Assembly (NCBI GenBank): GCA_009602725.1
Contig: WELB01000373.1
Span: 41,306 to 77,987 of the forward strand
Origin: Spirogloea muscicola
Lineage: Eukaryota; Streptophyta; Zygnematophyceae; Spirogloeales; Spirogloeaceae
DNA length: 36,682 bases
Direction: 5' to 3'
Below, piece after piece: positions 16,462 to 26,245 of the stretch (positions within the stretch are counted from its first letter, which is position 1; each line of letters starts with the position of its first letter). Both the position numbers and the translations under genes were made by a program. Below the pieces are notes generated by a model. The model searched no databases. It was not told the origin of the DNA and saw only the letters and a program-made list of their open reading frames with translations.

Positions 16462-19400
16462 ATGGCGCAGGCTGGCTCGCAAGACGTGGTGAAGAATGGG
16501 GGCGCCTCCAAGATGGTTCCCCTGGAGGGGCCTGACCGCTTCAACCTCCTCCTGCTGGGGGACGGCGAGTACTATTTCAAGGACTACTCCTGCCATTACC
16601 ACCCCCTGGGCTCTGTCCACAGGTAAACGACCACCTCCTGATTGCATTGCCATCCTTCCTGTCCTTTTCTTGCTCGCCCCCCCACACACCCCTCCCTTTC
16701 CTGTCCCAGTCCTTCCGGGACCATGGAAGGCTTAAGAAGTGCAGCCTGCTGCAGCCTGCTGCAAGGAGGCGTACGAAAAGCTTTGACGCACTCAATGCCG
16801 ACTCCTGCAAGCAACGTCCTCGTAGGGTTCTCGCTAACGCTGTGAGTGGCACATGTTCGGTAGCTGAGTTGTCCTCCTGTTGTTGGCATATACTGTATCC
16901 AGAGTTGCAGGCCACCTCAAAGTCTGCAGCGCTTCCATATTCTTTGTGCCCCGGAATCTCCATGAGCCAATCTTTCGTCTGGAGTACTGTAATACATCCC
17001 GCATCGAGAGGTCAGCATCCATGCCACTTCTTCTGTGCTGTATGGCAATATGTGACAGGAAGCTGACAGTTCTTCTGTCAGGACACTGAAGAATCTGTCA
17101 GAGGGGGTGTTTGCAAGTAAGACCCCGGGTTGAAGAGCAACTGAAGCGTTATGAAGTCTAGTCGCAATGAGCACAGCACAGCTACAGCTGCTGGAGCTAT
17201 CAAGAGGCGGGAGACAAAGCTATATTGATACTTTGAAATATGCCTAGCTAGTTGCAAGGACTATAAGTAGAGAAGGCTAGGCTCTTGATTTGTTGTTCAC
17301 ATTCGTACGATGCGTCCCAGCAGCATGAACAAGCCATGCACTGGCACTATGTGCTTGCTCAAGGGCAAGTCAGGGACAAGTTGCAAGACATGTCAAGAGG
17401 AGCAGGGGTAGTGGGTGCCCTTGCAGTCAGTTGGGAGTGAGGATAAGCTCAAATGAAGAAAGCAGACAAGCAGACACATGAATCTGCATCCGTCAAATAC
17501 AGCCAGATGGTCCCGGTATGCTAAGTGCCCATATGCTGCTTCGTGAATTCTTCTGTGCCCCAGATCTCCTGGACCTAGTAATGACGCTTCGCAGACGGAG
17601 GAGGAATTCTTTGTTGTAGCTGCCAAGGAACGCACGGACATGAAGATTGGCAACAGGAATTCACCATATGTCCGGCATAAGGTGGGGGCCATTGAGTCTT
17701 CACCTCCCAGGGTTACTTTAACAATACTCTCACCTAATAGGAGCATCAGTCAAAAGTTCCTGTTTGGCACCAGCAACTTGTATTCCATTGGGGATTTGAG
17801 CTACCTGGTTCGCGTCTTCTAAGATGGCTGTCACTGATTTCACCAGAAGTCTAGACGACCACTGAAAGTGTGAAATACGCATGACATGCAGCTTGGATGT
17901 TACTAATTGCAGCTGACAATGTGTAGGCATCTCATCTTGTACTGATTGACTTACTTCTTGATTGATTTGCACAACGGAGCTTTCTAAGCTGCCTGGCTGC
18001 ATAGATTGGACATGCGCTGCCTTTCACCATGTGAACCATTATCAGACACTGGCTGATGCAGGGCGACTTCCAATTCCGCTTTGCTCTGGTCTACACCTCC
18101 TTGAATGCGATGCTTCCTAGGGTCCAGACTTTGTTGGATCTTGCCAAGGCTCCTGAAAAGGAACGCAGTGAACAACTGAGGGTGCTCATTCAGGAGCACG
18201 AAGATCAGGTACTTGTGGTGTGCTCTTGTCAATCAAGTGCACAGACTGATGTAGGCAGGGAATCTGCAACTTAATCTTCAATCATATAGTCGATCAAGTG
18301 ACCAAGATTCACAAGACGTCCTTGCCTTCACCTTGATCCAGGTAGCTGTGAGGTGCACGGTTGGAGGGATAGGATTGTGCTCAAGCTGTCATGAAGGGCC
18401 CCTTTTAAGACACATAGTGGCTAATGGGAGCTTTTCCAGAGAACAACACCAAGAGACCTACTAAGTGGCCCGCCTCTTTGCATGTAGGTGCGCTTCAATC
18501 CTGGTTGGCTGGAAGACACAAGTGAGACATTGGTGATGGAGGTTGTTGGTAGGTGTCTCCTTTGCACCACATGACTGCCCCCCCCCCCGTGTAATCAGCG
18601 CTGCCGAAGGCTTAGTGCAGCTTAAGCTACGTATCATAGTACCTGCCACTGCACTTCACAAGGGCGCCCTGCTTGTGTTCTCATATTTGACAAAGCAAAG
18701 CCAGTCCATAGAGACCAAGCAATAACTTCCTGCAGAAGCTTGAGTGCTCCTTGACTGTTGCCTTGATATATGTCACGCTCATGGCAGGGAATCGAATCAC
18801 CCCACTAGTATGTCAACCAGGGAGAATCGTGTTGACAGAGCAGAGAGTGTATTTTCAGCCCTTCAATGTGGTACGCTACCAGCTTGATATCAAGAGCTTG
18901 CTTTGTGCAAGCTTTGCAGATTGCACTAGCCAACCACGAAGCCTCTAGCACTTAGTTGACCTTGAAAGTGCCCTCCTGCAGTGGTACTTCACCTGGTCGC
19001 ATGTTTTTGCCAAGATATGGAACAATGAACAACTGGACTTAGACACGGGTGCTTTAGCTTACTGTGGACCTTAAGCATCCATGACTGCTTCTCTTTGGCT
19101 TACAGGTGTCGTCAGCACCAGTTGTCCGCTACAAGCTTGATGAGGTCAGCTCGGTCATGCGAAGGACATACCACCTCGAAGAGGTGAGCATTCTCTGAGA
19201 AAGCAAAAAGCAGAAATGCTTAAGTGAGTACAAGACCTGGTCTTTCAGAAACAAGCATGGAGCAACATTTCAACATGTAGCACATGCCATGGGTGTCTGT
19301 TATAAATGTCGGGTCCATTTGCTAGGTTGCAGGGCAAGCAAGCCCTCTGGTCTGCACATCTTGCATACAATTTACACTTGCACCATCTGTTGGCAGATTG

Positions 19401-25400: not shown

Positions 25401-26245
25401 AGGAAACTGTCTCTGAGGACAGCGCAGAGCTGAAGGCACAGGAGCGCAGCTTGCAGAGCGCTGTGCGTGCACTCTTCCGCAAGAGCAGCAACTGGGTAGG
25501 GGGGGGCAAGGTCGCCGAGCGGCAGCATGGCAGCGTGCCGGGGGATGGAGGGGGGGAGAGCCAGAGCAACAGTGTCAGCCTGAGCGAGGAGGCAAGGCTG
25601 GAGCTGCGCACGAGGAGTCTGGGCACGCTGTCCACAGAGGCGCCAGCGGCGACAGGGGCATCAGGCAGGGACGAGGGTGACGGCGGAAATACGATTGCCG
25701 GCGAGGCGAAGGTGAGGAAAGTGAAGAGTTTGGAGATTCGCCCGGGGGGGTCGAATCCAGAGCTTCCAGAGAAGAGCCACATATACGGGCCGATAGACTG
25801 GGGGGAGAAGAAGGAGCAGAAGAAGGTGGCCGTCAGGAAGGCCAGCAAGCGCAATACCGCCGCCGGCGAATACAGCTTCTCGTCGTCCCACAAGGAGCTG
25901 TCAGGGTCATACTCGGAGAGCTTCACATCCCTGCAGCGCTCAGCATCAGTATCCTCCCAGCCACGCAGGGTGCCGCCGGCAGCAGAGGCTACACTGAGCA
26001 GCCTCAGCACCGCATCCCCTCAAAGAGCGAAAGAGGGTAATCAGGAGGTCAAGCTAGCGCCGCCTGCTGCTACCACCGCTGCGGCTGAGGCCTTGCCGCC
26101 ACCCACCAGCCACGGCGAGCGGACTGGCAGGCAGCGCAGCAGCAGCCCTCCAATGCCGCTCGTGCTGAAGCCCTCAGTATTGCTGGGCCAGTCATCAGCT
26201 CGTGACGCCCCGCCTTATTCTGACACTAGTAGGAGCTGCCATTGA
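16462..26245 (+). CDS. FAN/NSMAF-like GRAM-BEACH protein with C-terminal armadillo repeats
   Basis: Exons: 16462-16622, 16903-17010, 17564-17681, 18062-18208, 18488-18548, 18788-18870, 19106-19183, 19397-19431, 19578-19641, 19911-19976, 20288-20443, 20621-20893, 21233-21283, 21393-21458, 21571-21662, 21881-22055, 22167-22251, 22278-22403, 22605-22802, 22977-23170, 23447-23707, 23952-24038, 24253-24441, 24602-24781, 24936-25111, 25345-26245 (TGA); about 1,376 residues. The ATG follows an in-frame TGA (16450-16452). Residues 20-110 match the FAN N terminus ([16 protein letters not shown]), 190-290 a GRAM/PH region, and 310-600 a canonical BEACH domain ([82 protein letters not shown]). Residues about 700-1060 are ARM repeats ([65 protein letters not shown]). 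The last 300 residues are Ser/Lys-rich and disordered. BEACH proteins act in vesicle traffic and membrane scaffolding. No WD40 repeats were found. Confidence 0.92.
21106..21199 (+). repeat. 49-base tandem duplication in an intron
   Basis: AAGCTTCATGATGTCATGCA opens the first unit at 21106 and AAGCTTCATGATGTCACGCA the second at 21155. Both continue with GGCAGCTGAGATTGCTTGGA. The two copies differ at two positions. They lie in the intron before the exon at 21233 of the FAN-like gene and have no evident role. Confidence 0.8.
22252..22277 (+). other. possible 26-base GT-AG mini-intron or frameshift in the FAN-like gene
   Basis: After the BEACH end ([15 protein letters not shown]) the frame must change before [14 protein letters not shown], because only that second frame joins in phase to the armadillo exon at 22605. 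Removing 22252-22277 (GTTGCATGCC to CGACAG) does this. One extra G in the six-G run 22247-22252 would do the same. The alternative frame just upstream also reads sensibly ([12 protein letters not shown]), which favours a sequence error near the end of the BEACH exon. Confidence 0.4.

Follow-up and report, generated by a model that had tools for sequence, protein, structure and literature searches.

A FAN-type BEACH gene of Spirogloea muscicola that probably continues into armadillo repeats

Introduction

FAN carries seven WD repeats after its BEACH domain, and nearly all BEACH proteins end in WD40. A stretch of 36,682 nucleotides from the zygnematophycean alga Spirogloea muscicola (positions 41306-77987 of contig WELB01000373.1, here C373, in the 153-Mb, 471-contig assembly GCA_009602725.1; referred to as the window) raises the question of whether a FAN-type BEACH protein can continue into armadillo (ARM) repeats at the place of the propeller, or whether two adjacent genes have been read as one. 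The gene concerned is termed FAN-ARM below. Its BEACH and ARM halves probably form one gene, apparently an additional paralogue of a WD40-ended FAN-type gene on another contig, and comparison of the sequences suggests a membrane cargo adaptor with an ARM partner end.

Results

Gene model and domain order

The exon model of FAN-ARM was assembled by hand from the window sequence and consists of a single open frame of 25 exons (4164 nt with the stop codon, 1387 residues), with GT-AG dinucleotides in 24/24 introns; feature coordinates are collected in Table 1. A start of exon 4 at 18046 was rejected because it breaks the frame, and 18062, which fits, was adopted. The original prediction had described the junctions from the end of BEACH to the tail as agreeing in phase; positions 22403, 22802, 23170/23447 and 25111/25345 do agree, but the in-frame model moves the exon starts placed at 22605 and 22977 to 22601 and 22974. 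The encoded domains follow in the order PH_FAN, PH/GRAM-like, BEACH, linker, ARM repeats (residues about 720-1070) and Ser-rich tail.

Pfam searches identified PH_FAN and a complete BEACH domain, the latter aligned over profile positions 2-276 of 276. Between them, PH_BEACH matched residues 204-281 of the whole protein with an expect value (E) of 5.4e-6 and 26.9 bits, 0.6 bit under the cut-off of 27.5, and rose above that cut-off (34.0 bits) when the region was cut out and searched alone, indicating a PH-like domain directly ahead of BEACH. GRAM matched weakly and below its cut-off in both searches (0.0018 for the whole protein, 8.7e-4 for the cut-out region). The relatives of the first half in the PDB were LRBA and neurobeachin (1T77, 1.6e-76; 1MI1, 2.7e-76). 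NCBIfam, which is built on prokaryotes, gave no match for residues 1-178 or for the ARM half.

For the second half, Arm (PF00514) matched residues 942-981 above its cut-off (4.2e-9), and ARM_ARMC5 matched residues 842-1044 with 1.3e-12, yet under its own family cut-off, as did five more ARM/HEAT-like families under theirs. WD40 was absent from the 1387-residue model up to E 1, while the same library does detect WD40 in 4/4 sampled other BEACH genes of the assembly and in the FAN gene of contig LFLC01000007.1 (L014, described below). The ARM half displayed a period of 41 residues that was reached by 0/500 shuffles, as opposed to controls in which shuffles equalled or exceeded the observed lag value in 416/500 cases for BEACH and 263/500 for the tail. 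When nine single-repeat segments were compared with the Arm model, three matched at E 0.01 or better, one at 0.16 and five not at all, and most of the repeats are therefore divergent. PDB relatives of this half were designed proteins, Vac8 (5XJG, 1.5e-15), which was the top natural one, ARMC4/ODAD2 (8.4e-11), importin alpha and beta-catenin. The proposal that ARM repeats stand at the position of the WD40 repeats of FAN was thus borne out by the Arm match over cut-off, the periodicity, the lack of WD40 and a single frame retained in other copies of the gene. The tail, described beforehand as a Ser/Lys-rich stretch of 300 residues, has that length and is rich in serine (16%, followed by alanine with 11% and glycine with 10%), but lysine accounts for merely 6%.

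Relationship to FAN

The FAN gene of L014 was the one relative recovered when genome_contigs was scanned for BEACH; the scan of viral_contigs for BEACH relatives gave none. L014 is a 14-kb contig in a record labelled as a metagenome-assembled genome of Nitrosopumilus and holds an intron-bearing FAN gene of animal type; because of the introns and the FAN gene, it looks like eukaryotic (host) contamination in an archaeal record. Its product contains PH_FAN (3.7e-39) and a BEACH domain that runs into WD40 within one open frame. The FAN-ARM model aligned with it in four pieces from residue 24 to residue 603, stopping just past the BEACH end.

BEACH identity does not single out FAN, since it amounts to 53% with L014 and 55% with the second FAN-type gene of the assembly, on contig C356, against 51-52% with NBEA and LRBA. 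An alignment revealed two indels common to FAN-ARM, L014 and the C356 gene: two residues are missing ahead of LMLRLQ, and one extra residue stands a little past EFY. LRBA, NBEA and an ALFY-like gene have neither. A tree of six BEACH domains left the branching of the FAN sequences poorly supported (48). The FAN-type nature of the N-terminal half, as originally put forward, was upheld by PH_FAN, BEACH and the indels held in common with the animal-like FAN of L014 and the C356 gene.

Other copies, selection and the BEACH-ARM junction

Two further copies of the gene were located in the assembly. The copy on contig C2 comprises the whole gene, with 25/25 exons and intron dinucleotides identical to those of C373, and differs from it by no indels in exons 1-24 and by 63 in the introns. 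The third copy lies in two pieces, with exons 1-16 on C153 and the rest, exons 17-25, on C36. Its exons 1-24 keep the reading frame without premature stops, and 249 nt are absent from its exon 25. Splice dinucleotides agree between copies at all compared sites except one.

A reciprocal translocation, whose partner is the locus of a gene with EGF repeats, breaks the third copy in intron 16 (window about 22107-22124). It involves loci L004 (C153), L007 (C36), L008 (C94) and L009 (C69), and both derivative junctions were found; as judged by eye, the break has lost about 14 bp. EGF domains (PF12947, 2.9e-9) occur in one open frame of the partner locus. The translocation looks recent, as the frames of exons 1-24 are intact in both pieces, and an assembly mis-join is disfavoured because both reciprocal junctions are present.

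The ratio of nonsynonymous to synonymous substitution rates (dN/dS) among copies was 0.06-0.11 for PH_FAN plus GRAM, 0.07-0.09 for BEACH and 0.05-0.07 for ARM, with higher values for the whole linker (0.18-0.40) and the tail (residues 1071-1360, 0.13-0.20). Purifying selection on both the BEACH and the ARM halves is evident from these comparisons. In the whole linker the nonsynonymous share was below the neutral 0.75, with P values of 0.0006, 0.015 and 0.004 in the three pairwise comparisons of copies, themselves not independent, and the linker on the whole looks to evolve as protein-coding sequence.

A pair of adjacent genes, comprising a truncated GRAM-BEACH gene that stops in intron 17 (at 22448) and a stand-alone ARM gene that starts from the ATG at 22637, would account for the presence of that ATG in frame in 3/3 copies (another, at 22628, occurs in the window copy only), for an in-frame stop that every copy has immediately 5' of exon 18 and for the stop that is met 14, 11 and 11 residues into intron 17 in the three copies when exon 17 is read through. 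We regard this arrangement as very unlikely, given that a mere 197 bp separate exons 17 and 18, that TGTAA and AATAAA are absent from window positions 22404-22640 and from the matching stretches of C2 and C36, that the read-through tails vary among copies and span a 4-bp indel, that donor, acceptor and phase are conserved in all three copies, and that the linker behaves on the whole as coding sequence. Indels in intron 17 number three relative to C2 and two relative to C36, with none in exons 17 and 18. Nor does the ARM half have a second home in the assembly at E 0.001, where 21/21 matches fall on its own three copies on C373, C2 and C36. An argument that the 4-bp indel excludes read-through of intron 17 was dropped, the early stop occurring in all three copies regardless.

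The weight on the other side of a single gene with an ARM end is made up of several observations. The conserved ATG at 22637 renders the original assertion of no start-codon context between BEACH and ARM overstated, and the stops reached on retention of intron 17 make a separate BEACH-only product possible, as read from the three copies. The exon 5 donor of the third copy (L004) is AT rather than GT, and exon 25 of the C2 copy has a 1-nt insertion late in the exon. By part, the dN/dS of the linker was 0.09-0.70 in exon 17, with the highest value between C373 and the third copy, and 0.19-0.42 in exon 18, with the highest value between C373 and C2; constraint on the linker parts is weak or undetectable in some copy pairs. 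The copies are also closely related (synonymous divergence 0.06-0.24, mostly about 0.12) and do not represent independent lineages. One gene is nevertheless favoured because of the conserved exons, splice dinucleotides and frame, the low dN/dS in both halves and the small size of intron 17.

A set of WD40 exons used through alternative splicing, with the ARM exons as one of two 3' ends, is hardly credible: introns 17 and 18 (the latter of 171 bp) are too small for a propeller, the spliced model holds no WD40, a statement that extends to part of the reading frames of the window, and the next recognised gene downstream lies on the opposite strand.

Table 1. Features of the FAN-ARM gene in the window
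Feature	Window positions	Strand	Support
FAN-ARM coding span, 25 exons, 1387 residues	16462..26245	+	Open spliced frame, 24/24 GT-AG; identical 25-exon set in C2
Exons 1-4 (16462-16622, 16903-17010, 17564-17681, 18062-18208), PH_FAN, residues 25-165	16462..18208	+	PF25400, 7.7e-31; alignment with the FAN of L014 starts at residue 24
Exons 5-9 (18488-18548, 18788-18870, 19106-19183, 19397-19431, 19578-19641), PH/GRAM-like, residues about 179-285	18488..19641	+	PH_BEACH 3.3e-8 when cut out alone
Exons 10-17, BEACH, residues 302-597	19911..22403	+	PF02138, 5.7e-105; PDB 1T77/1MI1
Exon 17, end of BEACH and about 60 linker residues	22167..22403	+	
Intron 17 (phase 0, 197 bp), separating the exon with the BEACH end from the ARM exons	22404..22600	+	
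Exon 18, linker and first helices ahead of the ARM repeats	22601..22802	+	Splice dinucleotides and frame identical in C373, C2 and C36
Exons 19-24 (22974-23170, 23447-23707, 23952-24038, 24253-24441, 24602-24781, 24936-25111), about eight ARM repeats (by eye)	22974..25111	+	Arm, Vac8, periodicity, dN/dS
Exon 25, Ser-rich tail of 300 residues and stop	25345..26245	+	Composition, dN/dS

Neighbouring sequences

Three open frames of the convergent downstream neighbour (window 28151-30651, reverse strand) match a phosphatase of the myotubularin type (PF06602, 1.1e-28, 2.8e-35 and 9e-40), and the gene contains HCSDGWDRT, which we take to be the phosphatase active-site motif. That a phosphoinositide phosphatase adjoins a BEACH gene of endosomal type may be due to chance. 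Further away on the reverse strand, a BadF/BadG ATPase fragment (34892-35287, 2.1e-9) and an RsmB/F-type RNA methyltransferase fragment (5465-5818, 1.3e-4, below cut-off) were recognised. Directly upstream of FAN-ARM, a dispersed repeat (window 15300-15810) had at least 54 matches on many contigs in a search that scored 40 of 4394 first-look candidates.

A second FAN-type gene, with a WD40 end

The assembly contains light-harvesting genes (68 matches) and RbcS, which was matched in two pieces on each of four contigs (8 matches); nuclear RbcS marks the green lineage, so that an origin from a green alga is likely on gene content too. BEACH matches in the assembly numbered 57 on 13 contigs and were read as four groups of three plus the single contig C356. 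In the three groups other than FAN-ARM, one contig of three being sampled in each (C87, C26 and C43), WD40 follows BEACH; on C87 it is followed in turn by a FYVE finger, as in ALFY. The C356 gene (L005) was modelled with 15 in-frame exons and contains PH_FAN (4.7e-29) and Beach (1.9e-104). About 1.1-1.7 kb past its BEACH domain, two of the three open frames tested matched WD40 (2.7e-8 and 1.9e-13); the 3' exons are incomplete, and the WD40 part is known only as these open frames. A candidate exon 16 proved to be out of frame. Two introns, between DLGK/DLSK and PIGALN and between Q and MSEFG/VNEFG, agree in place and phase between FAN-ARM and the C356 gene, and since one of them sits immediately ahead of the last BEACH exon, the two genes diverge after that exon.

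As C356 of the same assembly carries a FAN-type gene with WD40 exons, the ARM form appears, from the sequences at hand, to be an additional paralogue beside it, with the caveat that C356 is gapped: positions 57001-64000 and 67000-70052 are runs of N. At about 78000-82000 the contig is AT-rich and one frame resembles an organellar gene, as judged by eye. A gap, an insertion or a mis-join is possible for these stretches. A flank of the gene (82239-83989) has an 89% relative on C303, where 7918 of the 10000 positions fetched are N, and with both contigs in this state the copy number of the WD40-ended FAN cannot be given. The original suggestion of a module swap in this lineage is unsupported, given the WD40-ended gene on C356 and a BEACH tree, described above, that cannot place the duplication. 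A true replacement, with the ARM form as the sole FAN of the alga and the C356 gene derived from a contaminant or another strain, would fit the occurrence of that gene on a single contig when other BEACH groups come in threes, the long N runs of C356 and the second copy looked for and not found; it is nonetheless judged quite unlikely, because a short piece of the dispersed repeat near FAN-ARM, whose family occurs on many contigs, recurs next to the C356 gene, with 76% identity over 113 bp and 100% over 25 bp, and because the mostly N stretch of C303 could hide a second copy.

Discussion

Proposed role

ARM solenoids often bind extended partner peptides. In the mechanism that we propose, the PH/GRAM and BEACH half of FAN-ARM would sit on endosomal or Golgi-derived membranes and grip the cytosolic tails of membrane cargo, the ARM solenoid, standing in for the propeller, would recruit another partner (a coat, tether or signalling protein, for instance), and the Ser-rich tail would be regulatory. 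Membrane and cargo binding are likely for the first half by analogy, because the matching domains are complete. In the part of the literature drawn on, purified PH-BEACH fragments of NBEAL1, NBEAL2, LRBA and ALFY bind the cytosolic tail of CTLA4, NSMAF shares early/sorting endosomes with RAB5A and RAB14 in human cells, and work is cited on the coupling of animal FAN/NSMAF to the TNF receptor and neutral sphingomyelinase (PMC11554844). From these analogies it is a reasonable inference that FAN-ARM would act at the same membrane step but recruit a different partner, with recruitment or cargo changed.

The case for a cargo adaptor is made by analogy, and we are not aware that the residues of PH-BEACH that bind cargo have been mapped. 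NSMAF, moreover, is not named among the cargo-binding PH-BEACH fragments in the portion of the study that we cite (PMC11554844). With Vac8 as the top natural PDB relative of the ARM half, the protein might instead be a Vac8-like membrane scaffold or tether, in which BEACH and PH would hold the membrane and the ARM groove would gather proteins of other organelles. ARM similarity says little on partners, however, and ODAD2/ARMC4 and importin alpha match too; we consider a scaffold of this kind unlikely and retain the cargo adaptor with an ARM partner end as the probable role.

Comparison with known systems

A BEACH-then-ARM protein was not found described in a partial search of the literature, mostly of titles and abstract openings; an annotated but undiscussed eukaryotic relative may exist. 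Tentatively, FAN-ARM could represent a second branch of FAN cargo adaptors that lacks the beta-propeller, the role of which would have passed to a C-terminal ARM solenoid, and that is strongly selected beside the WD40 form. If true, a BEACH core can function with no propeller, and the gene would be a natural swap experiment on the role of the propeller. By combining BEACH with ARM in the absence of a propeller, beside a sister gene that ends in WD40, FAN-ARM sets the functions of the two modules apart and lets one ask whether the propeller is needed to bind cargo, to target membranes or to recruit partners.

Compared with FAN/NSMAF (PH/GRAM, PH-BEACH, WD40), FAN-ARM has PH_FAN, the PH/GRAM-like domain and complete BEACH in equal order, the FAN-type indels and no giant N-terminal solenoid, but in place of WD40 it ends in ARM repeats followed by a Ser-rich tail. 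With the C356 gene it has in common PH_FAN, Beach, the BEACH identity given above and two intron positions and phases, whereas that gene has WD40 exons after BEACH and a different linker and other introns. Vac8 and ARMC4 (ODAD2) resemble it in their ARM solenoid, a likeness by sequence that implies no orthology, and are not known to carry BEACH or PH. Among typical BEACH proteins, an alpha-solenoid of HEAT or armadillo repeats is joined to BEACH, these proteins and FAN have the order PH-BEACH-WD40, WDR81 being atypical, and the pairing of solenoid and propeller is the reason that the typical ones are considered kin of coat proteins, according to the part of the source consulted (PMC11554844); the armadillo repeats of NBEA are likewise mentioned (PMC4801420, in part). 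FAN-ARM therefore shares the PH-BEACH core with LRBA, NBEA, ALFY and LYST, at a BEACH identity to NBEA and LRBA close to that with FAN, but the solenoid of those proteins is N-terminal and they end in WD40, whereas the solenoid of FAN-ARM is C-terminal and is accompanied by no propeller.

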